A DNA stretch of 22,735 bases from a virus: positions 1-22,735 of the IMG/VR virus record IMGVR_UViG_3300030382_004532; one strand, written 5' to 3'. This document shows positions 1 to 13,004 of the stretch, in pieces (positions within the stretch are counted from its first letter, which is position 1; the number at the start of each line of letters is the position of its first letter). The notes beneath the pieces were generated by a model that saw nothing but the letters and a program-made list of their open reading frames with translations, was not told the origin of the DNA and did no database searches. The position numbers and the translations under genes are program-made.

Positions 1-116
1 AAATTTTCTGTTTTGTTACACCTAAGACAATACCTAACAATGCCTCCTAATGGGTGCAAAGATTTATTGCTCCATTCATGGTATATATTAAACCAACATA
101 AAAGTTTTTGGATCAT
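1..116 (-). CDS. Small Cys-motif protein, 3' end cut by window edge
   Basis: An ATG at 116 opens a frame that stays open for 38 codons to the window edge. It begins MIQKLLCWFN and contains a CLRCNKTE segment, a single CxxC knuckle. Its ATG overlaps the stop of the 42-codon gene upstream (ATGA), and a GGGAG purine run sits just before it, so translation is probably coupled. Short phage proteins with an N-terminal hydrophobic/aromatic stretch and one C-terminal CxxC are common and of unknown role (DUF1660-like proteins look similar). I do not recognise a specific function. Confidence 0.5.
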   Translation of the reverse strand, partial: MIQKLLCWFNIYHEWSNKSLHPLGGIVRYCLRCNKTEN

Positions 117-241
117 ACTTCCCACTCCCAAATCCAATTTGCTATATCCCTATAAAACATTTCTTTTCGTAAACTTATATCAGGGTTTATATATTTATCT
201 TCAAAGTATGAATGTAGTATTCGTCTTAACCAACGTTTCAT
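113..241 (-). CDS. Hypothetical protein, 42 aa
   Basis: This is a 42-codon frame beginning MKRWLRRILHSY and ending IANWIWEWEV. The start overlaps the end of the HNH reading frame upstream (GTATGA) and is preceded by AAGGGTGGT, a usable SD. The end overlaps the next start by ATGA. The N-terminus is basic and the C-terminus is rich in Trp and acidic residues. No family is recognised. The case for a real gene is the SD and the two overlapping junctions, which match the style of the rest of the operon. Confidence 0.5.
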   Translation of the reverse strand: MKRWLRRILHSYFEDKYINPDISLRKEMFYRDIANWIWEWEV

Positions 242-897
242 ACCACCCTTATATTGATAATAGACATTTTACTAAATAATTTAATCCACTTTTTCCTGTC
301 GTGGTTAGTTTTTGTATGACAACTATGGCATAAAGTAATAAGGCTTATAGGATCACTATTCATCTTATTATAATCAATATGATGGACATGGTGTTTTCTT
401 TCTACTTGTTCTAACCCACATAATCTACAACAATAATTATCTCTTTTTCTAATTAATTCTTTTCAATTCTTCATTAAAATCAAATCCATAATCTCGAGAA
501 GTAATACCACCAGCCCAATTAGGATTATTTTCACCTCTCATATCGAGTCTTTTTTACCAAGATTTATTAATCTTAATTTTTTACGAGTTTCTTTTGAAAA
601 AATTTTACCTTTATGAGCTTCACTTCTTCGTTTTCTTTCTTCATTTGTAAATATTTTATTATGCATTGGATTCTTAATACCTAATTTGCATTTAGACATT
701 TTCTTTTTAGTTTCTTCAGAATGTTTTCTATTCCACATAGAACATTTTTCTCTTGTGCGAGTCTTTTTTAAAGTTTCTTTTTGTTCCTCTGTCCATTTTT
801 TACCCTTTTGCCCATGACCATTTAAATAAGTATTATATCTTTTAAATTGTTTATTCCACTTAGTTACTTTATTACACCCACACTCGCATAATTTCAT
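238..897 (-). pseudogene. Broken NUMOD3/HNH homing endonuclease
   Basis: The gene starts at 897 with a CxCGC zinc motif (MKLCECGCNKVTKW), followed by NUMOD3-like basic repeats, and hits a stop at 538-540. Beyond the stop the ancestral protein continues in two pieces: GENNPNWAGGITSRD in a shifted frame, then a complete HNH domain (RDNYCCRLCG, HHVHHIDYNK, ITLCHSCHTKTN) back in the original frame, down to a TGA at 238-240. The first shift fits loss of one base in the A6 run at 550-555 and the second fits gain of one base in the A4 run at 460-463. The intact paralogue at 1862-2581 aligns with the same order of parts. The 119-codon N-terminal fragment could still be made but lacks the nuclease. 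Two sequencing errors in homopolymers remain possible. Confidence 0.8.
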
Positions 898-899
898 AA

Positions 900-1865
900 T
901 TAAATTACCCCAAGTTTTTTAAAAACCGCAGAAAATTGTTTTTCCCAAGTATAACAATTGAGACATTTTGCTTGTCCTGCTTTAGCAATTACTAATCTAT
1001 CTTTTCTATTTTTGAACCTGCTATAAAATACTGCCTTCTCAACCAGTTCTTCTGGGCTTCCATAAAATAACATTTCTTTATCTTCTTCAAACAGCTCAGT
1101 TAAAAATGGTTCTCTTTCAGCCAAGTATAAACCACCCAAAGCTGGCACTTCAAAATCTCTCAGTCTTAATTGCTTCATTGCTTTATTTTTATAATCAGCA
1201 TTTTGTAATCCAGAAAATCCCAAACACACTCTTGATTCTAATACTGTTCTTATTAATCTTTTATATGATACCTTCCCCATCAATGTGTAGCTTACACCAG
1301 CATTAACTACATTAAAAAATAAAGGCAATCTATAACCATAAGGCTGCCCAATAAAACTTATATCAAAAGCAAACTTTGGCATATTCCTTTTATCTACTCT
1401 ATAAAACTGTGGATTGACCCCATAAGGAGTTTGTATTACTTTTGCATTAATACCTTTATAATTATCTACAGCAGCAATATTAGTAGTCCAATTCAAATCA
1501 AAAAAAGGCGCTGTCATTATATTGCCACGTTCAAAGGTGTGAACATCATTACACCCAAAATTGACTATCGGTATTTGCCAATTCTTTATTTCCTGTATAT
1601 ACTGAACATCAATCACAGGATCAGACAAATAGCCAAAGATCAAATCTAATGGCTTTTCTGCATGAGCCTTTGAAATCTTTTTCAATAATAAATCATTCAT
1701 TTCTTTTTTTCTTGTCGGTATCCAATCAGGATCATACTGTTTGTATCCATCTGCTTTCCAATCCCACGAAGTCACTGAGTGTCCCATATCTATCAGCGAA
1801 TCAACTAAATTCATTTTTTCCCAATTAAAATATTGAATAGCACAGAATATATTTAATTTTCTCAT
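900..1865 (-). CDS. CgeB-like GT-B glycosyltransferase
   Basis: A 321-aa protein with the two-domain GT-B plan. The N-terminal half begins MRKLNIFCAIQYFNWEK, an acceptor-side Rossmann start. The C-terminal half holds the conserved nucleotide-sugar signature of the Glyco_trans_1_2/CgeB group: RDFEVPALGG at about 236-245, then LAEREPFLTELFEEDKEM and a SPEELVEKA helix. The family transfers a sugar from an activated nucleotide donor; donor and acceptor cannot be read from the sequence. The start overlaps the HNH stop upstream (ATGA). A second, more diverged CgeB-like enzyme lies at 5309-6205, so the two probably act on different linkages of one glycan. The family call is firm; the acceptor is unknown. 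Confidence 0.85.
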   Translation of the reverse strand: MRKLNIFCAIQYFNWEKMNLVDSLIDMGHSVTSWDWKADGYKQYDPDWIPTRKKEMNDLLLKKISKAHAEKPLDLIFGYLSDPVIDVQYIQEIKNWQIPIVNFGCNDVHTFERGNIMTAPFFDLNWTTNIAAVDNYKGINAKVIQTPYGVNPQFYRVDKRNMPKFAFDISFIGQPYGYRLPLFFNVVNAGVSYTLMGKVSYKRLIRTVLESRVCLGFSGLQNADYKNKAMKQLRLRDFEVPALGGLYLAEREPFLTELFEEDKEMLFYGSPEELVEKAVFYSRFKNRKDRLVIAKAGQAKCLNCYTWEKQFSAVFKKLGVI

Positions 1866-2581
1866 TTAATAACCCTCACTTTAATACGTAACATTTTGTT
1901 AAAAAATTTAAACCATTTATCTCTATTAAAATTTGTTTTAGTGTGACAAGATTTACACAAAGAAATTAAGTAATTAGGATTAATGTTATCTTTATCATAA
2001 TCAATATGATGAACATCAAGTTTACTGTGAAACTTACTTCCGCTTTTTACTCCACAAAGTCTGCAGCAATAGCTGTCTCGTTGCCTAATAGACTCTTTTA
2101 AAGTATCTGTCCAATTAAAGTTATATGGCAACTTAGAAATACCTCCCTTCCAAGCATGAGATTTATTTCCTTTTTGTGCCTCACCTATTTTCCTTCTAAT
2201 TTCAAAAGACAAATGCTTACCCCAATTAGGATGTTTTTCTTTTGCACAAGCACCTTTATGAGACAAACTTAATTTTTCTTTTAATTTAGTAGAAAATTTT
2301 TTGCCAAAATTTGGATGATTTCTTTTATCTTTTAAACAATTTTTAGCTGCAACACTCATTTTCCTTTTTGATTCGTCAGACATTTTCTTTTCCAACATAT
2401 ATCTTGCATTATTCTTACTTATTTTATTTTTAGATTCTTTTGTATGTTTAAAACCTTTTAAAGATTTTGATATCTTATTACAAGTTTCAACTGATCGTTT
2501 TTTATTCTTATTAAAATGTCCTCTTTTCCAACACCCTGTTTTGTTGTGTTCTCCACAGCCACACTTACATAGTTTTTTCAT
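1862..2581 (-). CDS. NUMOD3/HNH homing-type endonuclease (intact)
   Basis: A 239-aa protein. Residues 5-9 form a CKCGC zinc motif. About 30-140 is a series of NUMOD3-type basic modules (SVETCNKISKSLKG, SHKGACAKEKHPNWGKHLS, GEAQKGNKSHAWKGG), known DNA-contacting elements of phage homing endonucleases. The C-terminus is an HNH nuclease: CCRLCG at 172-177, VHHIDYDKDN at 190-199, CKSCHTKTN at 209-217, with paired zinc cysteines and the catalytic HH. It overlaps both neighbours by ATGA, so this free-standing mobile gene is integrated seamlessly into the operon. It is a paralogue of the broken gene at 238-897. The cut site is not identifiable. Confidence 0.92.
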   Translation of the reverse strand: MKKLCKCGCGEHNKTGCWKRGHFNKNKKRSVETCNKISKSLKGFKHTKESKNKISKNNARYMLEKKMSDESKRKMSVAAKNCLKDKRNHPNFGKKFSTKLKEKLSLSHKGACAKEKHPNWGKHLSFEIRRKIGEAQKGNKSHAWKGGISKLPYNFNWTDTLKESIRQRDSYCCRLCGVKSGSKFHSKLDVHHIDYDKDNINPNYLISLCKSCHTKTNFNRDKWFKFFNKMLRIKVRVIK

Positions 2582-3093
2582 CTTCTATTCACCTCAAATA
2601 ATCTACTATAAATTTCATATGGAGCATTATCATCTCCATTCGTTAATACACTTTTACTATTCCACAGCAAAGGTTTAATCTTATCGTCAATTTCTTTTGC
2701 TTGTTCTTCTGTTTCAACTCTACCTGACTCAATATATGGTTTTACTCTGTTTATAAAAACATTTGTATTATCATAGCTATCAAATATATCATGAACAAAT
2801 GAAATAAAACTTTCCGGATAATTTTTTGGCATGTATATTAATGTCAACAGTAATGGTGAGTCAGTTATAGCATAATCAACTCTTCCTTTTAATCTTTCCA
2901 ACTTTCTATTTTGGTTTGCAAAAATATATAACTGGTCTTTTAAAATATCACGACTGTTATCCCATACAACATCTTTAGCAAACTCATTTACTAATTCCAC
3001 TGACATGCGTCTACTTTTCATCAGATGGAACAACCCAGCTGCTGCAGTACTCTTACCGCAACCAGGACCACCGAATAAATTTATTACTTTCAT
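2578..3093 (-). CDS. P-loop NTPase/kinase, AAA_28-like
   Basis: A 171-aa protein with a textbook Walker A loop, GGPGCGKST, at residues 8-16. An acidic DYAITDSP segment at about 73-80 resembles the lid/Walker B region of the AAA_28 (NadR/Ttd14-like) family of small kinases. Length is normal for a phage nucleotide or small-molecule kinase. The substrate cannot be assigned; in this context a sugar, nucleoside or cofactor is equally possible. The start overlaps the methyltransferase stop (ATGA) and the end overlaps the HNH start (ATGA), so it is translated as part of the accessory operon. Confidence 0.8.
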   Translation of the reverse strand: MKVINLFGGPGCGKSTAAAGLFHLMKSRRMSVELVNEFAKDVVWDNSRDILKDQLYIFANQNRKLERLKGRVDYAITDSPLLLTLIYMPKNYPESFISFVHDIFDSYDNTNVFINRVKPYIESGRVETEEQAKEIDDKIKPLLWNSKSVLTNGDDNAPYEIYSRLFEVNRR

Positions 3094-3806
3094 ATTTTAT
3101 CAATAGTTAAACACACAGGCATGATTCTGCCTTTATGTATTGGATTATCTGTAACATATAAATCATGTAATGTATTTGAATCTAATCTCATTAAGTCATT
3201 TCTATCTATCCCTTGATAACCAAGTAAAGTACCAAAAGAAATATTCATCTCATTTACCCAATCTAAATAAATATCAGTAGTTAAAATAACAATACCACCT
3301 TTTCTTGTTACTCTCAATGCCTCAGTTATTACTTTTTTTCTTATTGGGTATTCAGCAAGAACCTCATCTCCTTTTTTTATTTTTCCTGTAAATTGATTAA
3401 ATATCATATTAGTAGGAACATGCTCTAACACATTAATCAACAATGCTGCATCAAACTGTTCATCTTTAAAACTTAAATCAGCGCAGTTATTATGTACTAC
3501 TTTCATATTTATACTTTGAGATGCTTCCTTCATATCATCCCAACTCTTCTCATCATAATTATCTACACAGGTAACTTTATACATATCATTTGATATTAAA
3601 AATTTGGAAAATGCGGCATCTCCCGCACCTATATCTATTATTTCCGCACACCTATGAGTTTTTTCTTTTATAAGTTCATACACAAAAGGATATTCCCACA
3701 TTCTTGTATTATCTGTTCTCAACTTTGGTTGTTGACTCATCTTATGAATCAAAGGAGCATGCCTTAGACACCATGTTCTTGAGGGTAAGTAATGTTGTAT
3801 TTTCAT
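3090..3806 (-). CDS. SAM-dependent methyltransferase (class I)
   Basis: A 238-aa protein with the class I Rossmann motifs in order: motif I IDIGAGDAA at 58-66, the acidic ribose-binding end of strand 2 (CVDNYD, about 80-85), NNCADLSF at 106-113, and FDAALLINVLEHV at 118-130, as in Methyltransf_11. A later ALRVTRKGGIVILTT segment matches the conserved post-motif strand. The family transfers a methyl group from SAM to a small molecule, sugar or protein. Its position among glycosyltransferases and next to a radical SAM enzyme suggests sugar or lipid decoration, but that is inference. The N-terminal 50 residues are not typical of the family and may bind the substrate. Confidence 0.85.
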   Translation of the reverse strand: MKIQHYLPSRTWCLRHAPLIHKMSQQPKLRTDNTRMWEYPFVYELIKEKTHRCAEIIDIGAGDAAFSKFLISNDMYKVTCVDNYDEKSWDDMKEASQSINMKVVHNNCADLSFKDEQFDAALLINVLEHVPTNMIFNQFTGKIKKGDEVLAEYPIRKKVITEALRVTRKGGIVILTTDIYLDWVNEMNISFGTLLGYQGIDRNDLMRLDSNTLHDLYVTDNPIHKGRIMPVCLTIDKI

Positions 3807-3808
3807 AT

Positions 3809-3913
3809 TCAGCCAAAAAATTTATAAAATAATTCTTTCAATAAAGGAGACAAAATCTCCTCAATAATCCTAAAAACTGCTATTAAAAGTAGCACTTGAT
3901 TAAAAGTCATCAT
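3809..3913 (-). CDS. 34-aa hydrophobic membrane peptide
   Basis: A 34-codon frame beginning MMTFNQVLLLIAVFRIIEE and ending LFYKFFG. It starts on the base after the TAA of the upstream 75-aa gene, whose last codons GAGGAG supply an ideal SD, and it ends two bases before the methyltransferase ATG. The N-terminal half is one short hydrophobic helix; the rest is amphipathic. It could be a minor membrane protein or a holin partner. No family is recognised. The exact junctions on both sides are the main evidence that it is a gene. Confidence 0.6.
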   Translation of the reverse strand: MMTFNQVLLLIAVFRIIEEILSPLLKELFYKFFG

Positions 3914-4141
3914 TTACTCCTCATGGAAAGTTTTTAATCTTGAAACATCCTTTATCAAATCTTTAATATTTTCCCATTGTTTTACATCTGTTTGTTTTTT
4001 ATCACTCAATGATTTTATCGCACCGCTATTTGTATATACAGTTAACATTGTCCATCCCGCTAACGACAAAAATATAGTAATAACCATACCCAATAGCATT
4101 ACAAACATTTTGTCTTTAAACTTTTGAAAGGCATTTTCCAT
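3914..4141 (-). CDS. 75-aa membrane-anchored coiled-coil protein
   Basis: A short cytoplasmic N-terminus (MENAFQKFKDK) is followed by one transmembrane helix at about 12-35 (MFVMLLGMVITIFLSLAGWT) and a charged, probably helical tail. This resembles the XhlA-like/minor lysis or membrane-tether proteins of phages, but the sequence is not diagnostic. The helix and the following TVYTNSGAIKSL resemble GWTLVSTVETSKQVAVL in the 115-aa protein at 20140-20487, so the two may be distant paralogues. It overlaps the radical SAM gene by 26 nt and has an AGGAGA SD inside that gene. Confidence 0.7.
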   Translation of the reverse strand: MENAFQKFKDKMFVMLLGMVITIFLSLAGWTMLTVYTNSGAIKSLSDKKQTDVKQWENIKDLIKDVSRLKTFHEE

Positions 4142-5312
4142 TTTTAAACATCTCCTCTATTTTGTCTCTTTCCTGTATTAATTGTTCTGTAGTCAAATAA
4201 GGTGTTCTGACAGAAGATTTATATTCTCCAGCTCTACCTTTATAAAATTCTGGAACACCATCGCTCCAATCAATATCATATTTATTTTTCTCATTCCATA
4301 TTCTTGTATCGGGAAACGGCTGAAATAAGGATATGTCAAAATCATCTGGCTCTGCTTTTAAAAGCCATGCTATAGTATCATCTATACTATCTAAAGATTC
4401 TCCAGGAAGACCTAACATTAAAAACACCTTTGTTCTTATACCGTATTGCTTAAGCATCTTAATAGCATTTAATGCTTTTTGACTATTAAAGCCTTTACCT
4501 ATACTTTTTAATATACTATCATCTCCAGACTCTATTCCAATACCGACTTCCTTACACCCTGTCTGTTGCAATGTTTGGCACATATCTTCATTTACAAAAT
4601 TAACATGAGTAAAACATCTGTATATAATATCTTTTGATAACATATGTAAAGCTATATCTGCTAATCTATCTTTCTTCATAGTAAAAATATCATCAAAGAA
4701 CATCAATGATTGGTAGCCAAGTTTATATATCTCATCTATTTCTTTACGAACTCTATCCACACTTGCCATCCTAAGTTTTTTATTATTACCATCTACACAA
4801 AAAGCACAAGCAAAAGGACAGCCTCTTGAAGTAATAATTGTAGTTGTATTCCTTCCATCTATTTCATATTTATATCCATCAATTAAACCCCTTGCTGGGA
4901 AATGCACTTTATTAATATCTGGCGACTCATACACTTGTATTTCGTTAAGACCACTACCAATAAATTCTATTATATCTTCTACAAAATTTTCACCTTCCCC
5001 TTTAACCACAACATCAAAATATTCTTTATCTTCTTCTGTTAAACTTTGAACACCACAACCACCTATCACTGTTTTTTTACCATTACAATAATCTTTAACA
5101 AATCGTTTTGCTATTTCTATTTGAGGTGAAGTTATTGTTATAAAAACTATATCTTCATCAGGTTCGTTCAATCCTCTCCCAGCAAAGTCATACCAAACTG
5201 GCTCATGTCCTTCTTTTCTTAAAGCAGAAGCAATATACAAAATCCCCAATGGAGGAAATACTTTATCATCAATTAAAAAGGGAGAAGGTAAGTTTACACA
5301 AGCTATTTTCAC
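4116..5312 (-). CDS. Radical SAM enzyme with N-terminal B12-binding domain
   Basis: A 398-aa protein if started at the GTG at 5312. That GTG overlaps the upstream TGA (GTGA) and has AAAGGAGAG about 3 nt upstream; an ATG at 5333 would overlap the neighbour more and has no better SD. The N-terminus has the cobalamin-domain pattern of class B radical SAM proteins (FPPLGILYIASALRKEGHEP, then TVIGGCGV and VVVKGEGE). The 4Fe-4S site is GCPFACAFC (C165, C169, C172), followed by FFDDIFT. The family performs radical methylation, ring rearrangement or other C-H chemistry. No DxHxxG cobalamin motif is evident, so B12 may not be bound in the usual way. Lying between glycosyltransferases and a methyltransferase, it may modify a sugar or lipid carrier. 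Confidence 0.88.
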   Translation of the reverse strand: MKIACVNLPSPFLIDDKVFPPLGILYIASALRKEGHEPVWYDFAGRGLNEPDEDIVFITITSPQIEIAKRFVKDYCNGKKTVIGGCGVQSLTEEDKEYFDVVVKGEGENFVEDIIEFIGSGLNEIQVYESPDINKVHFPARGLIDGYKYEIDGRNTTTIITSRGCPFACAFCVDGNNKKLRMASVDRVRKEIDEIYKLGYQSLMFFDDIFTMKKDRLADIALHMLSKDIIYRCFTHVNFVNEDMCQTLQQTGCKEVGIGIESGDDSILKSIGKGFNSQKALNAIKMLKQYGIRTKVFLMLGLPGESLDSIDDTIAWLLKAEPDDFDISLFQPFPDTRIWNEKNKYDIDWSDGVPEFYKGRAGEYKSSVRTPYLTTEQLIQERDKIEEMFKNGKCLSKV

Positions 5313-6205
5313 ACACTCTCCTTTACTTTCCATTCATCTATATCTTTTAGCATCTTTTTAAACCTATGTTGAGCTAAATGATTATTCATTACACAATTAT
5401 AAGTTCTATCTGCCAGACTATTTATCTTGTGTGGATTGTCAAAATAGTATCTTAATTTTTTAATCAAATCATCAAAATCATACCAGCCAATAATCTCATC
5501 TTCATTAAATAAATCCATTAAGTCATCACTATATTTTGTAAACACAGCAGCACCGCAAGCACCTGCTTCAAACACCCTCTGAGACACACCAGATTCTCCC
5601 TGAGCAGCATTGATAACTATCTTTGACCTATTTAATAGGTCTGAATAAGCATGCCCATATACTCCTTGTTTGAAGCAAAGTTTCCTATTTTTAAAATGAT
5701 ACTTAACTGTGTTCATCATTTTAATCCTGTACTCATTAAAATTTCCTATGAAACAAATGTCTATGTCTCTAACCGAATTCATATTATTAAAAAACATATC
5801 TTGACCTGTCCAGCTTGGCATCCATTTAACTTCTTTACATCCAAGATACTTAAAAGCATTAATAGCATTTCCATCAAAAGTATAAACAATGTCATAGCAA
5901 TGTCCAACTCTTTTTATAAGCCTTGCATAATTTGGATACTGAAGAATATCATCTGGAAAATATAACACTCTTGGTTGGGAGCACACTTGTATACTTTCTG
6001 GGTTCAACATCTCCCCTTTGAATACAATAGTAGCATTATATGATTTGAATAAATTATTCTTATAAGATTCCGAATATCTAAGATCAGTTATTGTTAAATC
6101 TATGCCTAATTTTTTTCCTTCTTCAGTAGCCAACCAATTCACAATTCTACATTCATTACCATGAGGAAAATTTGATTTAACTGGAGCTATTAGATTTATT
6201 TTCAT
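5309..6205 (-). CDS. CgeB-like GT-B glycosyltransferase (second)
   Basis: A 298-aa protein. The N-terminus MKINLIAPVKSNFPHGNE starts a Rossmann domain. VLYFPDDILQYPNYARL and IVYTFDGNAINAFKYLGC are typical acceptor-domain segments of the CgeB/DUF3880 group. The donor-site signature is VSQRVFEAGACGAAVFT at about 207-223, followed by DDLMDLFNEDEIIGWYDFDDL. It is translationally coupled to the GT9 gene upstream (GT9 ends at 6202) and to the radical SAM gene downstream (GTGA). It differs strongly from the CgeB-like enzyme at 900-1865, so a different acceptor is likely. Confidence 0.82.
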   Translation of the reverse strand: MKINLIAPVKSNFPHGNECRIVNWLATEEGKKLGIDLTITDLRYSESYKNNLFKSYNATIVFKGEMLNPESIQVCSQPRVLYFPDDILQYPNYARLIKRVGHCYDIVYTFDGNAINAFKYLGCKEVKWMPSWTGQDMFFNNMNSVRDIDICFIGNFNEYRIKMMNTVKYHFKNRKLCFKQGVYGHAYSDLLNRSKIVINAAQGESGVSQRVFEAGACGAAVFTKYSDDLMDLFNEDEIIGWYDFDDLIKKLRYYFDNPHKINSLADRTYNCVMNNHLAQHRFKKMLKDIDEWKVKESV

Positions 6206-7164
6206 AATTTTAAATACCTATCAACATGCTCCATTACCATATCTACTGTAATATTTTGCATACACTTATTATCTTTACAATACCCAAACCTTTGTGTATA
6301 CAAACAAGGACTACATTCTAATTTTTCATCTCTCAACACAACACCATTTGCTCTCCATGCTTTATTTTTACTTGGCAATGTTGGTCCAAATAACTGTATA
6401 ACTGGTGTATTTACTGCAGCAGCAATATGCATTGGTCCTGAGTCAGTACTAATCATTAGATCACATTGGGATATAAGGTAAGCTATTTCTGTTATAGGCT
6501 GATTCCAATGAAAAATATTCAATGATCCTTTGCTTCCTATATTATTTTCTGCAATTTTATCTCCAATATAATCAATATCTTCTTTTTCCCAATAACTCAA
6601 TATCATATGAGTGTCAACATCACCATCTAATCGTTCTAATAACTCAACCCAATTATCATTGTCCCATCTTTTCTTCTTCCACCACACTTCAGGTCTTGAT
6701 CCTATATGAAGGCAAATATTTTTTTTATTTCTTTCTTTAGACATAATATCGCAAACTGTAACAGGACAATACATCATTGGTGGCATCTTAGTTACTTCAC
6801 ACTTTTCATAATAACCTAATTTCTCTGCCACCTTAAAATATAATTCTACTTCGTGCATTCCATTCAAAAAATATTTAAAAGGAGATTCTGATTCTTTTGT
6901 TATCTTCCAATTCAGCTTTGGTAGCATTCTATCTCCTTCTCCCCATATGTAAAAAGCTTCATCGTATTTTTTATCTGGAGAGTAAAACCCTAAGTCAAAC
7001 CAAGCATTTATTATATCGGTAATTGGCTCATATCTTAAATCGCCTTTTGGGACATCTAATAATATGTCTACATGGTAATCCATTTTTTGTAGACCGATAA
7101 TGGTAGGAGTAAGCATTATAAAGTTTCCAATGCCATTCTTAAAACTGAGGGCTATATTCTTCAT
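6202..7164 (-). CDS. Glycosyltransferase family 9 (heptosyltransferase-like)
   Basis: A 320-aa protein starting at the ATG at 7164, which overlaps the previous TGA (TGATG); a TTG codon just before it is unnecessary. Family 9 features are clear: GIGNFIMLTP at 11-20, CLHIGSRPEVWWKKKRW at about 151-167, and the nucleotide-sugar site STDSGPMHIAAAVNTPVIQL at 239-258 followed by FGPT. The C-terminal cysteines 284, 287, 296 and 301 match the usual GT9 Cys cluster. In bacteria these enzymes add heptose or related sugars to lipopolysaccharide. A viral copy could decorate the host envelope or a viral glycan. The family call is firm; the sugar is not readable. Confidence 0.93.
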   Translation of the reverse strand: MKNIALSFKNGIGNFIMLTPTIIGLQKMDYHVDILLDVPKGDLRYEPITDIINAWFDLGFYSPDKKYDEAFYIWGEGDRMLPKLNWKITKESESPFKYFLNGMHEVELYFKVAEKLGYYEKCEVTKMPPMMYCPVTVCDIMSKERNKKNICLHIGSRPEVWWKKKRWDNDNWVELLERLDGDVDTHMILSYWEKEDIDYIGDKIAENNIGSKGSLNIFHWNQPITEIAYLISQCDLMISTDSGPMHIAAAVNTPVIQLFGPTLPSKNKAWRANGVVLRDEKLECSPCLYTQRFGYCKDNKCMQNITVDMVMEHVDRYLKL

Positions 7165-7322
7165 CAATCCTTTATGAAATTTTCTAATTCGTATAAGAGA
7201 TGTGTTGGGTTTTGGTCAAAGTCTTCTTCTAAATAACTTGAATTGCTTTTCAAATCATTTTCACAAAGACAATGGTAAAATATTTCACCACACTCCCTGC
7301 AATAAAATCTACTATCTGGCAT
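7164..7322 (-). CDS. 52-aa zinc-ribbon-like protein
   Basis: A 52-codon frame beginning MPDSRFYCRECGEIFYHCLC, so C8, C11, H17, C18 and C20 could hold a zinc ion; the rest is acidic. It begins two bases after the upstream stop, with AAGAGGAAA as SD formed by the last codons of the HExxH gene, and its TGA overlaps the GT9 ATG. Small zinc-ribbon proteins are common in phage genomes as nucleic-acid or protein binders. No specific function can be given. Confidence 0.6.
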   Translation of the reverse strand: MPDSRFYCRECGEIFYHCLCENDLKSNSSYLEEDFDQNPTHLLYELENFIKD

Positions 7323-7324
7323 AA

Positions 7325-7732
7325 TTATTTCCTCTTCTTTTTATTATACTGCTTTATCTTTATAAGGACTTTGCCATACAAAGACTCAGCCAACTCTATA
7401 AAATTAGCTTCACTTTTTAAGCACACATCATACTGCTCTGGTGGCTCATCATCTTCCCAATGCTTATCTAAATGGAAACAAACATGAAGTAATTCGTGTA
7501 ACAATACTTTTTGAAAATGTATGTCGTGGCTTTGACTGTCTCCACACACCCATACAACAGCCTTGCCTCTGTAAAAATATGAAACTCCTTCATGGTTATT
7601 CTCTGTATGGAACACATCATCATTTGATAAATCCCATTGCTTCTTTACATATCTATTAGCTTTAGCAAGAGGTTCTTTCAAAAAGAATCTAACTACACTG
7701 CCTGTACGATCATCCGTTATTGAGAATATCAT
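7325..7732 (-). CDS. HExxH zinc-metallopeptidase-like protein
   Basis: A 135-aa protein with HELLH at residues 79-83 in a typical zinc helix (VLLHELLHVCFHLDKH), and a second conserved-looking helix EANFIELAESLYG at 108-120 that could supply the third ligand (E113). The order resembles small SprT- or ImmA-type phage metallopeptidases, but the match is limited to the motif. I chose the ATG at 7732 (MIFSITDDRTGS): the earlier ATG at 7786 would overlap the upstream gene by 77 bases and adds a hydrophobic run translated from that gene's other frame. The chosen start still overlaps the upstream gene by 23 bases. The C-terminus is very basic (KKKRK). Substrate unknown. Confidence 0.7.
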   Translation of the reverse strand: MIFSITDDRTGSVVRFFLKEPLAKANRYVKKQWDLSNDDVFHTENNHEGVSYFYRGKAVVWVCGDSQSHDIHFQKVLLHELLHVCFHLDKHWEDDEPPEQYDVCLKSEANFIELAESLYGKVLIKIKQYNKKKRK

Positions 7733-7931
7733 CTTTATACCATAAATAATAATTTCTTGTATTAATTGACACACCAAATACAGCAATAACTAACAAGCCA
7801 TACACTTCCATGGTTATAGCTACATATATCCAAGACAATGAAGCTAAAATATTAACAATAAACCCTGTCTTGTATTTATTGCCTACACACCAAGACCCAA
7901 ATAATTCTGTTATACCTGCTAACCAATCCAT
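7710..7931 (-). CDS. Small PnuC-like membrane protein
   Basis: A 73-aa protein with two predicted transmembrane helices, about 23-39 and 42-56. The segment SWIYVAITMEVYGLLVIAVF followed by GVSINTRNYYLW resembles one repeat unit of PnuC-like vitamin transporters, which many phages carry as very short proteins. At this length it cannot be a complete transporter by itself and may work as an oligomer or have lost that role. It starts at an ATG overlapping the upstream TAA (TAATG). Confidence 0.6.
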   Translation of the reverse strand: MDWLAGITELFGSWCVGNKYKTGFIVNILASLSWIYVAITMEVYGLLVIAVFGVSINTRNYYLWYKDDILNNG

Positions 7932-8128
7932 TACTTATTCTCATAAAAAATAGAAATTACAATATAATGAAGAAAAGTATATTTATGTCCTCCACCAATT
8001 GTTCTACTACCTGACATAGTATTTTGTTTCCGTTCTTGAACTATTATTGTGTTGTTTTTTTCAAACCATTCATTTATTTCTTTTTCCATTTCATTAACAT
8101 CTGTACCGCCAAACATTTTTACTTTCAT
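7931..8128 (-). CDS. Small protein, Cse60-like fold suspected
   Basis: A 65-aa protein from the ATG at 8128, which overlaps the stop of the upstream 28-aa gene (ATGA) and has GGAGG 12 bases upstream. The order MKVKMFGGTDVNEMEKEINE, a helix, a strand (TIIVQERKQ), a glycine-rich turn (RTIGGGHKYT) and a final strand (FLHYIVISIFYE) matches the plan of the Cse60/DUF2758 sporulation-associated small proteins, also found in phages. Their function is unknown. The resemblance is by pattern only. Confidence 0.6.
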   Translation of the reverse strand: MKVKMFGGTDVNEMEKEINEWFEKNNTIIVQERKQNTMSGSRTIGGGHKYTFLHYIVISIFYENK

Positions 8129-8211
8129 AAAATAGGTCTTCCTCCTGTACCACCCATATACCATGCTCCCAAAGCAGATACTATAACAATAATTGTAATA
8201 ATTGTAATCAT
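8125..8211 (-). CDS. 28-aa single-pass membrane microprotein
   Basis: This short frame reads MITIITIIVIVSALGAWYM and then a glycine-rich end GGTGGRPIL. Residues 1-19 form one uninterrupted hydrophobic helix. It is coupled on both sides by ATGA overlaps, to the 75-aa membrane gene before and to the Cse60-like gene after. The GGAGGAAG inside its 3' end is the SD for the next gene. No homologue is recognised. Its position within a run of membrane proteins (7710-8435) suggests a shared membrane role. Confidence 0.6.
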   Translation of the reverse strand: MITIITIIVIVSALGAWYMGGTGGRPIL

Positions 8212-8435
8212 AAAAAACTTGAGATCAATAATGCAGTAGCTGTACCAGACACAGCACCACAGGAATAAATTATTTTACCTTTTAAATCACAGCTTGCCAT
8301 TGAATTGACATTAAAAGCCCATGTCAAAGATATACAGAAACTCGTAATCAAACTTAAAATATATTTATCGTTAGCAATAAACCACGTGCTCAAAGTAATG
8401 AGCATTACCAACAAATATGATCTAAAAAATATCAT
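8208..8435 (-). CDS. 75-aa multi-pass membrane protein
   Basis: It contains two to three hydrophobic helices: FFRSYLLVMLITLSTWFIA, YILSLITSFCISLTWAFNV and the C-terminal SCGAVSGTATALLISSFL. Length and layout match small phage membrane proteins with an N-terminal helix pair and a Gly/Ala-rich final helix. No enzymatic motif is visible. The start overlaps the phosphoesterase stop (ATGA), the end overlaps the 28-aa gene (ATGA). A holin role is possible but nothing here proves it. Confidence 0.65.
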   Translation of the reverse strand: MIFFRSYLLVMLITLSTWFIANDKYILSLITSFCISLTWAFNVNSMASCDLKGKIIYSCGAVSGTATALLISSFL

Positions 8436-9283
8436 ATGACCACTTTATCTATACTATCAATATCACCATTACTTCCATTAAGAACTACATAACCTGTCTC
8501 AAGAGGATCATACATAGCTTGTTCTGAATAAGTAGATACACCAATCAAATTCGTCTTCATAAAAGAACCTGTGTTGCAATACCACCTATCATCTTCTGGT
8601 ATAATCTTAGAACTTCCGTGTCTCTTAGAATAAACACTTTGTAATTTCTTTTCATCCGAGATAAGATAGAGTCTTGATTTTGGACTAACTACCCTCAGAC
8701 CATGGGTGTGTCCCATGAACATAGCCAAACAATCTGCTGCTTTATTTTTTAACTTCCTTTTTAAAGACTCATCCATATTTGCTTCTCTACGAATAATATC
8801 ACCAGCACTTGATTTAATTATACCCGCACCATGACAACAATAAATCTTGTATAAAATTTTATTGCTTTTGCTTTTTTCTCTTAACGTAATAACAGAAGCA
8901 AATGTACCATAGTTAATACCAAGCTTTTTACACATTGTCCGAACCTTTGAGCCATAAATTCTACTCAACCCAAAATCATGGTTACCTTCATGAGCAGAAA
9001 TAATTTTTTCTTTGATTGGCTTTATGGTTTGATAGATATTCTCATATTGATTTTCAGGTAAGAGTAATTCTGGATCAGCTACTTCTAAATCAAAAAACTT
9101 ATGGTTACTCGGTCTTCCTTCAACCCAATCTCCTATTCCAACTACAAAAGCATTCTCTTGTTTTTTAACTTCATCAACAGCATCATCAAATGCCTTTGTA
9201 TTATGAGCTAAAGTGCCTCTGTGTATATCTCCAAAAAAATAAATCTTATGCTTATCAGGTACGTTGTAACTTATTAGTTGCAT
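8432..9283 (-). CDS. Calcineurin-like metallophosphoesterase
   Basis: A 283-aa protein with all five metal-site motifs in order: GDIHRG at 18-23, GIGDW at 49-53, GNHD at 100-103, CHGAG at about 150-154 and GHTHG at 191-195. The family hydrolyses phosphomono- or diesters with two metal ions; substrates range from nucleic acid to nucleotide sugars. An extra loop (residues 55-95) sits between motifs 2 and 3. The start overlaps the zinc-protein gene upstream by 10 bases and has AAGGAGA as SD. Substrate unknown; a nucleotide-sugar or nucleic-acid role would both fit. Confidence 0.9.
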   Translation of the reverse strand: MQLISYNVPDKHKIYFFGDIHRGTLAHNTKAFDDAVDEVKKQENAFVVGIGDWVEGRPSNHKFFDLEVADPELLLPENQYENIYQTIKPIKEKIISAHEGNHDFGLSRIYGSKVRTMCKKLGINYGTFASVITLREKSKSNKILYKIYCCHGAGIIKSSAGDIIRREANMDESLKRKLKNKAADCLAMFMGHTHGLRVVSPKSRLYLISDEKKLQSVYSKRHGSSKIIPEDDRWYCNTGSFMKTNLIGVSTYSEQAMYDPLETGYVVLNGSNGDIDSIDKVVI

Positions 9284-9618
9284 TTATTATATCTCCTTTG
9301 TGAAATAGCATGCCTTTCTTTACAAGCATGACAACGATAAGCTTCCCCCACCTCTGCTCTTAGTTTAATACCACAGGCATGACACCTACCTTCTTTCTTA
9401 AGCTGTATATTCTCTTGTCTTCTTTGCTTAAGGTGATAATCACACCTTATGCTTTTTTCAGATGAAACTGGTTCAGGACAATACCTACATAAACCCAGCA
9501 TACTCTGTCTTATTTGATAACGAATTTTACTTACATGACTTTCAGTCCAATGTGGTTTTATTCTTGAACGTGCCTCTTGATCAGCCAATTCAAAAATTAT
9601 ATCTCTTGTTATTCTCAT
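9274..9618 (-). CDS. Double zinc-ribbon protein
   Basis: A 114-aa basic protein with two probable zinc sites: CRYC...CDYH (C44, C47, C59, H62) and CHACG...CHACK (C79, C82, C96, C99). A helix rich in Arg and Lys lies between them (HLKQRRQENIQLKKEGR). This repeated CxxC...R...EGRCxxCG layout is common in phage DNA-associated proteins of unknown role. The start overlaps the GT4 stop (ATGA). DNA or RNA binding is a reasonable inference, not shown. Confidence 0.7.
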   Translation of the reverse strand: MRITRDIIFELADQEARSRIKPHWTESHVSKIRYQIRQSMLGLCRYCPEPVSSEKSIRCDYHLKQRRQENIQLKKEGRCHACGIKLRAEVGEAYRCHACKERHAISQRRYNKCN

Positions 9619-10655
9619 TCACCTACAATAACACCTACCAATGCTTTACCATTAGTTTCCCATGACCATTCGTTTCTCATTTTTAAAGTATTCTTTTTCA
9701 TTTCCAATATTGTCTCTGGACAATCTTCAAACCAATTAAAAGCCCAAGCAAGTGCATGTTCTAATCTATCTCTATCTAATGTGTAACCCGTCTTTTCGTT
9801 TATAACAAATTCATTCATCGGTGCTTCATCAATTGTCAGTATAGGAATACCGCACCCTATCGCTTCCAAGAATGACAGACCCAATCCTTCAACCTTTGAA
9901 GGCAACACACAGCAATCAGAGCACTGATAAAGAGTAAGAATTTCACTGCGAGTAAGATTTTGCCTACCGATGATAACATGTCCTAAATTATAATTAACAG
10001 GTTTCTGATTATTAGACAACAATGAATGCACATACAATAGTGATCTTGGTACTAACTCACCTTGTTCTGTAACATCTATTCTGTTCTTATTTAAAAAACC
10101 TCTTAAGGTTGGAACTTTGCCAGACAAATCTTCATCTGTATCTTTACCAACAGGATGGAAATATTTTATTGGTTTAGTATCTAACAAAAGTTCTTGTGAA
10201 GGTTTGAATATCTCTTCATCAAACCCCCACTTAACATATACTGCTTGATCATATTCTTTAAAAAAAGAAAAACACTTTTTAGTAGGACAAATTATCCTAT
10301 CAAAATCTTTATATAAATTAACATCTTTTATATATTCCCACATTGGGATTGATATAGTTTCAACTGCAACATTAATACTACCGATAACTTTTATTAAGTC
10401 ATCTACAGAATCAAACCCAAGAAACACACATCTACTAATATCATTTTTCTTAATCCAAAAATTTATAACATCAGCAGGTATTGTAAACTCTGGATACCAC
10501 TCTACACTTGGAACATTAAATTCAGGTTCACGAGTATTATTATTTCTCGCCAGTACAAATACAGAATGCCCATACTTAATGAGTTGTTTCCGTATGTCCA
10601 ATACTGTGTAACCATATCCGCCTCTTTTGAACGGAGCAACTATTCCAATATTCAC
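9615..10655 (-). CDS. Glycosyltransferase family 4 (GT-B)
   Basis: A 346-aa protein beginning MNIGIVAPFKRGGYGYTVLD, a glycine-rich N-terminal Rossmann loop. The C-terminal domain has the family 4 donor site PSKVEGLGLSFLEAIGCGIP with the EX7E pair E256 and E264, preceded by TLYQCSDCCVL and followed by NEFVINEKTGYTL. This is a retaining GT4 enzyme; the donor is probably a nucleotide sugar. The start is a GTG that overlaps the upstream TGA (GTGA). The middle part (residues 150-225) is less typical and may define acceptor choice. Confidence 0.92.
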   Translation of the reverse strand: MNIGIVAPFKRGGYGYTVLDIRKQLIKYGHSVFVLARNNNTREPEFNVPSVEWYPEFTIPADVINFWIKKNDISRCVFLGFDSVDDLIKVIGSINVAVETISIPMWEYIKDVNLYKDFDRIICPTKKCFSFFKEYDQAVYVKWGFDEEIFKPSQELLLDTKPIKYFHPVGKDTDEDLSGKVPTLRGFLNKNRIDVTEQGELVPRSLLYVHSLLSNNQKPVNYNLGHVIIGRQNLTRSEILTLYQCSDCCVLPSKVEGLGLSFLEAIGCGIPILTIDEAPMNEFVINEKTGYTLDRDRLEHALAWAFNWFEDCPETILEMKKNTLKMRNEWSWETNGKALVGVIVGE

Positions 10656-10789
10656 TTAGTTTCCTTTTCCTTAGATTCTTCTGAATCCTTTACACTTTTC
10701 TTTTTAAAAGTATTCTCCCATCTTTTGTGGTAATCTTTTTTTCTGTATCTATTCCCTTTACACAAAAGGTTTTCCCCTCTAATTGCCAT
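10652..10789 (-). CDS. 45-aa basic protein
   Basis: A 45-codon frame beginning MAIRGENLLCKGNRYRKKDY and ending ESKEKETK. A strong SD (AGGAGAG) lies about 6 bases before the ATG, inside the end of the 101-aa gene, and the stop overlaps the GT4 start. It is extremely Lys/Arg-rich, and its KE-rich tail resembles the C-terminus of the 101-aa neighbour. Function not recognised; it may bind nucleic acid or pack inside the head. Confidence 0.6.
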   Translation of the reverse strand: MAIRGENLLCKGNRYRKKDYHKRWENTFKKKSVKDSEESKEKETK

Positions 10790-11084
10790 ACCTGCCTCTC
10801 CTTTTTAATCTTTTAGATTCTTCCTTCTTTTCTTTCTTTGACTCTTCTTCCTTTGGAGCTTCTTTTTTTTCTTCAGCTTTAGCAACCATCTTATTAGCAG
10901 GTGCTTTCATTTCTTTTTGAGGTTTATTACAACCATCGACAATATCAAATGATCCAGGATAATCCCTCATTACCTCATCAGCTTTTTCTTTAGTGTATTC
11001 TTTTTCAGTACCTACCTGATGACCGTCAAAAACCTTCTTGTATCCTGGTGCTCCCTTATAAACTAATATCTTATGTGTACTCAT
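10779..11084 (-). CDS. 101-aa protein with KE-rich tail
   Basis: Residues 1-50 form a compact segment (HKILVYKGAPGYKKVFDGHQ, then EYTKEKADEVMRDYPGSFDI) that resembles small phage domains built around a glycine turn and a helix ending in a P-G-x-F motif. Residues 55-101 are a low-complexity Lys/Glu/Ala tail. Such two-part proteins often sit near capsid genes as minor head or fibre-attachment proteins. The start overlaps the upstream stop (ATGA). No enzymatic motif is present. Confidence 0.65.
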   Translation of the reverse strand: MSTHKILVYKGAPGYKKVFDGHQVGTEKEYTKEKADEVMRDYPGSFDIVDGCNKPQKEMKAPANKMVAKAEEKKEAPKEEESKKEKKEESKRLKRRGRYGN

Positions 11085-11284
11085 ATTCTTTCCTCCTCTG
11101 TTAAATTAAAATATTGATCTTTACTTAAATTTTTAAATTTCTTAAAGCCTTTGGCTACTTGCCATTCTCGCTTCTTTTTATTTTTATCCCACCTTTCTTC
11201 TCTTGTATATCTTTGACAAGATGGTTTATTTTTATTCCTTCCATACTTCTTTGTCCCACCTTTACCTTTCTTATGTGTAGGCAC
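11081..11284 (-). CDS. 67-aa highly basic protein
   Basis: A 67-aa protein, about one third Lys and Arg (MPTHKKGKGGTKKYGRNKNK, then CQRYTREERWDKNKKKRE). It starts at a GTG with GGAGGT 7 bases upstream, which lies in the last codons of the GT2 gene. The CQRYxxExRxxKNK pattern recurs in small phage proteins of unknown role. Nucleic-acid binding or packaging into the head is plausible from charge alone. Confidence 0.65.
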   Translation of the reverse strand: MPTHKKGKGGTKKYGRNKNKPSCQRYTREERWDKNKKKREWQVAKGFKKFKNLSKDQYFNLTEEERI

Positions 11285-12604
11285 TTACACAACCTCCATT
11301 CCTTTATTATACTGTTTTTCTCCTTTGCTTACTGTATTCATAGCATTATTCAATATTTCTGGACTCAAAAATTCTTTAGTCATATCCTTTGCTTTTTTAT
11401 CTTTATCTCTTTTTTCAATTGCCTCTTTTAAAAGTTTAATATTGTGCAAAGTTGCTGGGCAGCCTTCTCCTGTCTTTTTATTTGTCTTCCATTCCAGCAC
11501 TCTTCTAAAACACTTCAATGCTTCATCTAATTCACCAAGTTGACTAAAATTTACCGCCATGCCTTCCCACGGATACCAGCTATACACTCTTGCCATAAGA
11601 AAGTATGTAGTATCTGGCAAAGGCAATTGTGAAGCTATATACCACCAATGGTTTGATTCATGAAGTTTATTCAAATTCTTTTTTGCTAAAGCAAGGTAAT
11701 GATAAAGTTCAGCCCTGTCCCACCTATTCCTTAATCCTTTATAACCCCACTCAACCATCTCTTTATACTTCTTGACTTTATATAATGAATTCATAGCTGA
11801 TATACAAATCTGTGCAGCAATATCTGGATCATGTTGATCTGATAATTTAAAAGATTTTTTATAATGTTTAATAGCATTTGTTACATCATTTGCTTCATCT
11901 AAACTATCAGCATAATAAAAATTATCTCTAACATCCTTTGGCTTTTCACTTACTGACTTACCAAGCTTCCTTACATTCATATCAGTACGCATTCCAGTAC
12001 GCATTTGTTTTCTTTTCTCAGGCATATTGTGAATAAAGAAAACCTCTGGGAGTCTACATATTATTTTTTTATCATCATCAAAAAGATAATTATGTACTTT
12101 CCTATGAAACTTTACGTGCCCAGTATTTTTAAAAAATATTGGTCGTCTGAATATCACATCTGGTATATCATTATCATCTACATCAATTTCTATATTAGGA
12201 GAAAAAACATTTGCTTCAGTAGGATTTATCTTTAGAAGTTCTTGTATAACTTCTCTTCCATCATACTTCCCAGGATTATTAGCTGTTGTACGCATCACTT
12301 CGTGGCCATCAGGAAACATTATCCAAGCATCTTTATCAGCTTTATCTATTAAAGCATTTCTATGTTTGCTAAAATCTTCACCCCAATCAAAGAATGATAC
12401 TTCATCAGTGTACTTTCTAACTATCTCTTCTGTATTATCTTTAGTATTATTATCTATCCCAATGATCAGCCTATCATATAAAGGCTTACCATCATCCCAA
12501 TGAAATGCTTTTATTGCTTGTTCAATAGTTTCTGCCTCATCTTTTAAAATAAACATGAGGATAAACTTTACTGGATGTTCATTTCCATCTCTACCCATTA
12601 CCAT
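11285..12604 (-). CDS. GT2 glycosyltransferase fused to TPR-like repeats
   Basis: A 439-aa protein. Residues 12-200 are a GT-A fold: FILMFILKDEAETIEQAIKA at the N-terminus, IIGIDNNTKDNTEEIVRKY, then DFSKHRNALIDKADKDAWIM leading to FPDGHEVM at about 97-104. Family members usually show DADE at that metal/nucleotide site, so the DGHE form is unusual. Residues 225-370 read as TPR-like helix pairs (NAIKHYKKSFKLSDQHDPDI, ELYHYLALAKKNLNKLHESN, ELDEALKCFRRVLEW), which in other GT2-TPR proteins hold the protein acceptor. GGGAGAG is the SD. A protein acceptor, perhaps a virion protein, is inferred. Confidence 0.88.
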   Translation of the reverse strand: MVMGRDGNEHPVKFILMFILKDEAETIEQAIKAFHWDDGKPLYDRLIIGIDNNTKDNTEEIVRKYTDEVSFFDWGEDFSKHRNALIDKADKDAWIMFPDGHEVMRTTANNPGKYDGREVIQELLKINPTEANVFSPNIEIDVDDNDIPDVIFRRPIFFKNTGHVKFHRKVHNYLFDDDKKIICRLPEVFFIHNMPEKRKQMRTGMRTDMNVRKLGKSVSEKPKDVRDNFYYADSLDEANDVTNAIKHYKKSFKLSDQHDPDIAAQICISAMNSLYKVKKYKEMVEWGYKGLRNRWDRAELYHYLALAKKNLNKLHESNHWWYIASQLPLPDTTYFLMARVYSWYPWEGMAVNFSQLGELDEALKCFRRVLEWKTNKKTGEGCPATLHNIKLLKEAIEKRDKDKKAKDMTKEFLSPEILNNAMNTVSKGEKQYNKGMEVV

Positions 12605-12610
12605 TAAACT

Positions 12611-12629
12611 CTCCCAATAAAAAAGGGAG
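12611..12629 (-). promoter_or_regulatory. SD-sequestering hairpin before the GT2 gene
   Basis: In the transcript, CTCCC (12629-12625) can pair with GGGAG (12615-12611), the core of the GT2 gene SD, across a U-rich nine-base loop. The same CTCCC is the 3' arm of the terminator at 12616-12672, so the two structures exclude each other. Read-through transcripts could thus have the GT2 start masked or open. This is by base-pairing only. Confidence 0.35.
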
Positions 12630-12672
12630 CATACAAAATTCTCATTTGATTGAAAATATGTATCTCCCTTTT
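12616..12672 (-). terminator. Rho-independent-type terminator after the decoration gene
   Basis: In the minus-strand transcript, AAAAGGGAGATAC pairs with GTATGCTCCCTTTT (13 pairs, one bulged C) around a loop of about 25 bases, followed by a run of six U within UUUUUUAUU. It lies 32 bases beyond the end of the 99-aa gene and ends the head-gene transcript before the glycosyltransferase island. A second U-rich stretch (GGAGGTTTTTATTTT, near 12674-12690) precedes it. The long loop lowers certainty. Confidence 0.6.
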
Positions 12673-12704
12673 AGTTAAAATAAAAACCTCCGAAGATTTT
12701 AAAC

Positions 12705-13004
12705 TTAAGACCTGTCCCACCAAACTAACATAACTGACTTGGCAGAAGTATCAGTATTGGCAATCTGCATTCTACTTGACCCAACTACAAAAGTTACAGA
12801 AGCAAGGGTCATATTCTGAGAGCCAGCAGCAGTATCTCCAAATACCATACAAGATAAAGGTGCATCACTTGCAGGACTAAGACCTGAGATAGCAGAAGAA
12901 CCGTTACCCCCAGCAGACGCAAACCCAGTTACAAGTTCAAACCGAAGTTTCCCTGCCACCATATCAGATAATTCTTTAATTGCTCCGACTGTTGGATTTG
13001 GCAT
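12705..13004 (-). CDS. Putative head decoration protein, 99 aa
   Basis: A 99-aa protein rich in Gly, Ala and Ser, with alternating hydrophobic segments that read as beta strands (KLRFELVTGFA, MTLASVTFVVGSSRMQIA, SVMLVWWDRS). It directly follows the major capsid gene, has a perfect SD (AGGAGG, 9 bases from ATG) and is followed by a terminator, which is the usual place of capsid decoration or minor head proteins. No diagnostic motif is visible, so the role is inferred from position and composition. Confidence 0.6.
   Translation of the reverse strand: MPNPTVGAIKELSDMVAGKLRFELVTGFASAGGNGSSAISGLSPASDAPLSCMVFGDTAAGSQNMTLASVTFVVGSSRMQIANTDTSAKSVMLVWWDRS

Follow-up and report, generated by a model that had tools for sequence, protein, structure and literature searches.

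A phage-encoded radical SAM enzyme of a largely viral clade and its candidate role in glycan tailoring

The sugar-gene island and its radical SAM protein

The linear IMG/VR virus fragment IMGVR_UViG_3300030382_004532 was analysed over its whole 22,735 bp, hereafter the window, and our subject is the radical S-adenosylmethionine (SAM) enzyme that it encodes, a member of a largely viral clade that we propose as a candidate glycan-tailoring enzyme. By its gene content the fragment is a phage; genes for a portal, a MuF-type head protein, a head protease and a major head protein, all on the minus strand and assigned with PHROGs, identify it as tailed. An island of sugar genes, again entirely on the minus strand, runs downstream of the head genes and includes the gene for the radical SAM enzyme (Table 1).

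The sequence-only reading had described linked genes for a GT9 glycosyltransferase (GT), a CgeB-like GT, a radical SAM enzyme and a SAM-dependent methyltransferase. All four are in place and the junctions are mostly overlaps of 4 bp, at GT9/CgeB-like GT and at CgeB-like GT/radical SAM (GTGA, given the start GTG at 5312). The last link requires correction, as the 3' end of the radical SAM gene overlaps by 26 bp the open reading frame (ORF) of a 75-residue membrane protein, and not the methyltransferase gene, which follows that ORF after a gap of 107 bp. Past the methyltransferase the block continues with the kinase, the HNH endonuclease and a second CgeB-like GT, each joined by a 4-bp overlap. 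For the GT9 gene, an ATG at 7164 lies 3 bases inside the listed TTG at 7167 and would give an ORF of 6202-7164. Single-sequence scans with the GT9 and with the upstream CgeB-like GT each found no relatives in viral contigs, a result that means no more than the absence of close relatives from that viral collection.

Table 1. Island genes of the window, with the profile matches (E-values) on which their assignments rest
Position	Strand	Assignment	Matches and remarks
11285-12604	-	GT2-type glycosyltransferase with TPR repeats (SunS-like)	PF00535 3.9e-6; PF07719 1.3e-7; TIGR04195 1.7e-8, below cut-off
9615-10655	-	GT4 glycosyltransferase	PF00534 5.6e-17
6202-7167	-	GT9 (heptosyltransferase-type) glycosyltransferase	PF01075 1.3e-22
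5309-6205	-	CgeB-like glycosyltransferase	PF13524 2.1e-23
4116-5312	-	Radical SAM enzyme, 398 residues	PF04055 5.5e-26; PF02310 7.5e-8
3914-4141	-	Membrane protein (judged by eye), 75 residues	No Pfam match
3090-3806	-	SAM-dependent class I methyltransferase	PF08241 1e-11
2578-3093	-	P-loop kinase-like protein (thymidylate-kinase-type phrog)	PF13521 1.6e-10; phrog_2107 1.7e-16
1862-2581	-	HNH/NUMOD3 homing endonuclease	PF07460 1.4e-15
900-1865	-	Second CgeB-like glycosyltransferase	PF13524 6.3e-16; kept in L002, L003 and L009

The radical SAM protein has 398 residues from GTG 5312 and would have 405 from the alternative ATG 5333; the former start is supported because the orthologue in the two closest viruses (L002 and L003) begins with TTG at the same residue. 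Its GCPFACAFC sequence holds the cluster motif C165-x3-C169-x2-C172, in which all three cysteines are invariant in the 71 viral relatives described below (71/71), and this CX3CX2C motif together with PF04055 at 92.1 bits (cut-off 29.5) places the protein in the radical SAM superfamily. The match to the B12-binding domain family PF02310 is marginal (32.7 bits; cut-off 32.1). In an AlphaFold2 model built from 35 aligned sequences (predicted local distance difference test score, pLDDT, 90.1; predicted template modelling score, pTM, 0.89) the N-domain (approximately residues 1-126) is predicted to have five Rossmann strands and to lack helix alpha-2, between strands 2 and 3, and the radical SAM barrel follows it. 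The B12-type domain of the sequence-only reading is upheld by this predicted Rossmann fold; PF02310, the model and the whole-length fold matches together place the protein among the B12-binding-domain radical SAM enzymes, although the Pfam match by itself is weak.

The viral clade and its gene neighbourhoods

Relatives of the enzyme were collected by scanning IMG/VR with an alignment of 12 viral sequences, of which we took the best 80 of at least 471 relatives, among at least 599 matched stretches. One locus (L123, with no complete ORF) and five loci on contigs already included were dropped. The remainder, joined with the earlier loci and the window, made up 85 loci, which were reduced to 71 sequences at a 90% identity threshold; this viral set was itself picked by similarity to the viral alignment. 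The sequence-only reading had called such gene combinations rare in phages; dozens of distinct viral loci from this one scan contradict that view. Trees were used for placement because viral and cellular relatives cannot be told apart by their bit scores against the clade profile. In a quick tree of 103 rows, made without bootstrap and comprising the 71 viral sequences, 28 cellular sequences and four other viral ones, all 71 and a single Nanoarchaeota sequence (L072, the only clade member among the 28 cellular sequences) lie on one side of a branch with a Shimodaira-Hasegawa-like approximate likelihood ratio test (SH-aLRT) value of 96. The smallest supported set that includes the window and more than its sister comprises 48 rows, every one of them viral, with an SH-aLRT of 99. 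An earlier tree of 76 rows gave a similar clade of 12 viral and two cellular rows (SH-aLRT 95), of which the second cellular one, L054, falls outside the clade in the 103-row tree.

The cellular relatives are under-sampled, since the scan of cellular genomes was carried forward as the best 80 of at least 594 stretches, then 57 extracted proteins, then the 28 in the tree. Phylum searches at 1e-95 or better matched one of 379 genomes (Patescibacteria L200, 344 bits, left out of the tree) and none of 395 in a second phylum, at a threshold that would also miss many viral clade members. Only four of 50,697 named-phage records gave a match. Streptomyces phage SF3 accounts for two of the four, at 24% identity, and proteins of its type lie outside the clade. 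A distant match to the human-gut record MT835514 was not counted as phage, since by eye the record resembles a bacterial chromosome, with glutamyl-tRNA synthetase, glycerol kinase and other genes. In SF3 (L004/L022), whose gp36 represents a second viral lineage of B12-domain radical SAM proteins, thymidylate kinase and NUDIX genes follow, which suggests a nucleotide-related role unlike that of the clade studied here; CgeB-like or GT9 matches were found in none of the six SF3-type records L022-L025, L028 and L029. Four viral loci (L132, L154, L158 and L168) each contain, in the stretch examined, a pair of ORFs with matches to the radical SAM clade profile.

Inspection of ten viral loci, by eye and with Pfam, showed sugar genes beside the radical SAM gene in eight. 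These neighbours are a methyltransferase and a NodU-type carbamoyltransferase (L010); a cupin, a nucleoside diphosphate (NDP)-sugar dehydratase, a DegT aminotransferase and a methyltransferase (L012); a dehydratase, GT2, GT4 and FkbM (L013); GT4, a weakly matched pyruvyltransferase and a second radical SAM gene (L015); DegT, a methyltransferase, a PglD-type acyltransferase and an epimerase (L017); a pyruvyltransferase and a CgeB-like GT (L018 and L019); and RmlD-type and epimerase genes (L020). To set such readings against a background, the Pfam content of 140 immediate neighbours over the 71 loci was compared with that of 140 genes more than 3.5 kb away, a random sample of 318. GT2 was found in 19/140 immediate neighbours and in 4/140 distant genes (Fisher p 0.0017), and the immediate neighbours include five pyruvyltransferases and five CgeB-like proteins, neither family being among the 25 control families listed. 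The radical SAM gene overlaps the same-strand upstream gene, or lies 20 bp or less from it, in 51 of 67 loci.

Records of 50 of the 71 relatives, all of them fragments, were also examined for short-chain dehydrogenase/reductase (SDR) enzymes that act on NDP-sugars. Such epimerases or dehydratases occur in 24 of the 50 (23 above cut-off); none was found in the window fragment itself. The archaeal clade member L072 is flanked by a rhamnosyl O-methyltransferase/CmcI-type protein on one side and a GT2 on the other, and an epimerase is close by. The link to sugars that had been suspected from the window is thus borne out by the GT2 enrichment, the SDR enzymes, the hand-read loci and the archaeal cluster. 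As a separate observation, positions 1-12950 of the virus contig L006 are, by eye, crowded with sugar genes, among them acylneuraminate cytidylyltransferase-like, sulfotransferase-like and FkbM-like genes and several GTs; these surround two further radical SAM genes, one of which encodes a B12-type domain.

Several observations weigh against a role in glycan making. In L011 and L014, two of the ten inspected loci, no sugar gene was seen near the radical SAM gene. GT4 (PF00534) is not enriched (7 vs 7), and the wider sum over sugar classes, 46 vs 17, presumes that no protein was counted twice. The enrichment is inflated to an uncertain degree because the distant controls hold more short, possibly spurious ORFs. 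Finally, both upstream GTs of the window, GT9 and CgeB-like, are missing in L002 and L003, the closest viruses, whose radical SAM orthologue is 82% identical over the alignment.

In these two viruses the radical SAM, membrane-protein and methyltransferase genes remain together, and the place of the GTs is taken, as judged by eye, by a homing endonuclease (L002 and L003) and a DNA methyltransferase (L003). It follows from this gene content that the adjacent GTs are not lasting partners of the radical SAM enzyme; the membrane protein and the methyltransferase are. The methyltransferase is 89% identical in L007 and L008 and 83% in L009. L002 and L009 keep the same order and continue with a GT2, an NAD-dependent epimerase and then head-tail connector genes (L002 proteins assigned with Pfam and PHROGs), and the island therefore sits within the structural gene block in these viruses. 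Homing endonucleases, present in the window island and upstream of the radical SAM gene in L002 and L003, may explain the mosaic make-up of the island; in the window island NUMOD3/HNH genes lie at 1862-2581 and, by eye, at 538-897. The kinase of the window (2578-3093) is reduced in the sister viruses to an ORF of 82 residues (L002:3183-3431, L003:4413-4661), the C-terminal part of which resembles an HNH endonuclease tail, as if a deletion had fused both genes. Among the head genes, the MuF-type protein of the window (17777-20137) has a weak C-terminal match to the phage ADP-ribosyltransferase family phrog_3895 (0.0025).

Proposed chemistry and acceptor

We propose that the radical SAM protein is probably a phage-encoded glycan-tailoring enzyme whose target is a carbon atom in a (nucleotide-)sugar or a glycan. 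This reading is supported by the viral clade, by the sugar context of the viral loci and of the archaeal L072, and by AprD4, a radical SAM 1,2-diol dehydratase of the apramycin pathway, as the best solved relative by sequence and by fold. The [4Fe-4S] cluster would cleave SAM, and a 5'-deoxyadenosyl radical would abstract hydrogen at a carbon position, either in a nucleotide-activated sugar or in the growing glycan. The sugar radical might then be methylated from methylcobalamin, which is our tentative first choice, or might, with somewhat lower probability, lose water or rearrange in the cobalamin-free manner of AprD4, or might meet another fate; among the possible products is the C-methylated or rearranged sugar suggested by the sequence-only reading. 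Neighbouring GTs would move the modified sugar onto the virion or the host surface, probably late in infection, given the position of the island inside the block of head/neck genes.

The acceptor is the sole difference between this proposal and a compatible one in which the island is a moron that alters only the host surface polysaccharide, blocking superinfection or helping adsorption, with the radical SAM enzyme as one replaceable tailoring step. We regard this restriction to the host surface as possible and rather unlikely. The heptosyltransferase-type GT9 and the NDP-sugar genes resemble O-antigen genes, the sister viruses swap their genes in modular fashion, and viruses of methane-cycling archaea are reported to carry O-antigen genes and B12-domain radical SAM proteins (PMC9723712). 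However, the head/neck placement suggests late expression, when a change of the host surface would bring little gain.

For the chemistry, the question is whether the enzyme uses cobalamin. Cobalamin-dependent radical SAM enzymes bind the cofactor base-off, not His-on, with the residue under the cobalt, in the loop after strand 3, being Asn186 in OxsB, Arg69 in TsrM and Trp76 in TokK (PMC13331322). Since they bind it without the histidine, the absence of DxHxxG, correctly noted by the sequence-only reading, is uninformative for this class. In profile alignments read by eye, OxsB Asn186 and TsrM Arg69 align to Thr61 of the window protein, a position occupied by Thr in 57/71 viral relatives. In favour of cobalamin, all 71 relatives (71/71) have Gly-Gly after strand 4, and the histidine of a GGxH motif is kept in 59/71. 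Weighing against the glycan-tailoring proposal are the loss of this histidine in the window (GGCG) and in L120 and the presence of H236 and N238 in the window where R (54/71) and D (39/71) are usual; the closest solved match, AprD4, which is presumably cobalamin-free, speaks against methylation in particular. At the aligned place TsrM, which was solved with cobalamin, has GGIG, and MgmA has GGPV (by eye). Cobalamin is thus neither established nor excluded by the sequence, because the GG loop is kept, the histidine is Gly in the window and also in TsrM, and MgmA has Val. The N-domain of the window protein alone found no match in the PDB; that of the relative L124 matches the solved structure 4q37 (0.0048), which we take to be the TM0182 cobalamin domain. 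This domain is named in the review of the class (PMC13331322).

An enzyme that works like AprD4 without cobalamin, removing a hydroxyl or epimerising a sugar carbon by radical elimination while a separate reductase supplies electrons, is conceivable, and we would not expect it to be the answer. AprD4 is the top solved match by sequence and by fold, the two proteins are of comparable length (398 vs 457 residues) and lack the long C-terminal part of TokK, CysS and OxsB, and the SDR-type enzymes near the relatives could serve as the partner. The partner of AprD4 itself is an NAD(P)H reductase. Set against these likenesses are a CX3CX3C motif in AprD4 where the window has CX3CX2C, a score of 96 bits with the NCBIfam AprD4 model against the required 500, an AprD4 N-domain whose alignment to the clade profile is short and weak, and the loop motifs of cobalamin enzymes, which most of the clade keeps.

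A joint role of the radical SAM enzyme and the sugar genes in modifying the bases of the phage's own DNA appears improbable. Virus-encoded GTs are said, in the title of a 2024 report by Pyle that PMC12619734 cites, to hypermodify DNA, which we counted for this alternative along with the thymidylate-kinase-type kinase in the block and the NodU-type carbamoyltransferases near relatives. The kinase, however, is truncated in the sister viruses, and the enzymes that build NDP-sugars and the place within structural genes suit glycans better. Homologues of thymidylate synthase or hydroxymethylase were found in 0/50 relative records, by a search whose control was positive in 9/14 genomes; TET/JBP was also found in 0/50, but there the control search likewise matched none. 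DNA is the least likely acceptor because the island lies in the head/neck block and thymidylate synthase is absent from those 50 records. An RNA- or protein-modifying enzyme (of MiaB/RimO type, or of the type acting on ribosomally synthesised and post-translationally modified peptides) brought near sugar genes by an accident of modular insertion is very improbable: MiaB folds align well (Z 27) and the viral islands are mosaics with homing endonucleases, but Pfam reports no UPF0004 or TRAM domain, the MiaB/RimO model scores 50 bits vs 251, and the sugar association recurs in diverse viruses and an archaeal genome.

Should the glycan-tailoring proposal prove true, phages would harbour an extensive, uncharacterised group of radical SAM enzymes with a part in glycan synthesis. 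This would extend the known chemistry at sugar carbons, supply enzymes for glycoengineering, and open to test whether phages make surface sugars of their own late in infection. The clade is large enough for substrates to be sought by comparing neighbourhoods. The stronger claim, that a virus-specific radical SAM lineage produces sugars altered at carbon (by methylation, deoxygenation or rearrangement) for display on phage particles, and that phages and not hosts are the main bearers of such chemistry, seems to us doubtful.

Comparison with known systems

Among the best 25 of 61 NCBIfam matches no model reaches its cut-off for the window protein, and the same holds for nine relatives among matches at 1e-18 or better; PHROGs gave weak matches only. 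The highest NCBIfam scores, among those 25, are for PhpK, HpnJ, TIGR04072 and AprD4. We rejected membership of the PhpK P-methyltransferases (TIGR04479, 148 bits vs 600), HpnJ (TIGR03471, 107.8 vs 577.6), the AprD4 diol dehydratases (NF033070, 96.4 vs 500, with the CX3CX3C motif absent) and the MgmA-type family (TIGR04014, 80 vs 360). Nor does the protein group with MiaB-like or BchE-like enzymes, the outcome that the sequence-only reading had named as fatal to a sugar role: the BchE anaerobic cyclase model (TIGR02026) gives 74.3 bits vs 481, and MiaB/RimO (TIGR00089) gives 49.8 vs 251, with neither UPF0004 nor TRAM found by Pfam at E up to 0.1.

Viruses of methane-cycling archaea are described as carrying B12-domain radical SAM proteins together with GT2, GT4, GT9 and NDP-sugar genes, so that neither B12-domain radical SAM proteins nor sugar genes are new to viruses; in the parts covered, that account discusses the radical SAM proteins through their cysteine content and does not link them to the sugar genes (PMC9723712). 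In the literature searched, which covered few subscription papers, we found no account of a radical SAM viral clade tied to phage glycan islands.

Compared with solved structures, the predicted model ranks AprD4 first (Z 34.1), followed by MgmA (31.9), CysS (29.8), MiaB (27.1) and OxsB (26.5), with MiaB below AprD4, MgmA and CysS. The PhpK-type and HpnJ models align mainly over the radical SAM barrel. The class 1 cobalamin-dependent enzymes CysS, TokK, OxsB and TsrM share the Rossmann domain and radical SAM barrel (Z 20-30), and CysS, TokK and TsrM share the GG loop with the window protein, but they are longer, have a further C-terminal part and are 16-21% identical to it. MgmA, the glutamine C-methyltransferase of methyl-coenzyme M reductase (9ccb), likewise shows, in alignments, a short connection from Rossmann strand 2 to strand 3; its substrate, in contrast, is a protein. 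AprD4 (6fd2) differs in its cluster motif and is 20% identical, yet it shares the two-domain fold over 382 residues at 2.9 Å, is the best sequence match in the PDB (7.5e-21, and 1.2e-54 with the clade profile), and acts on a sugar.

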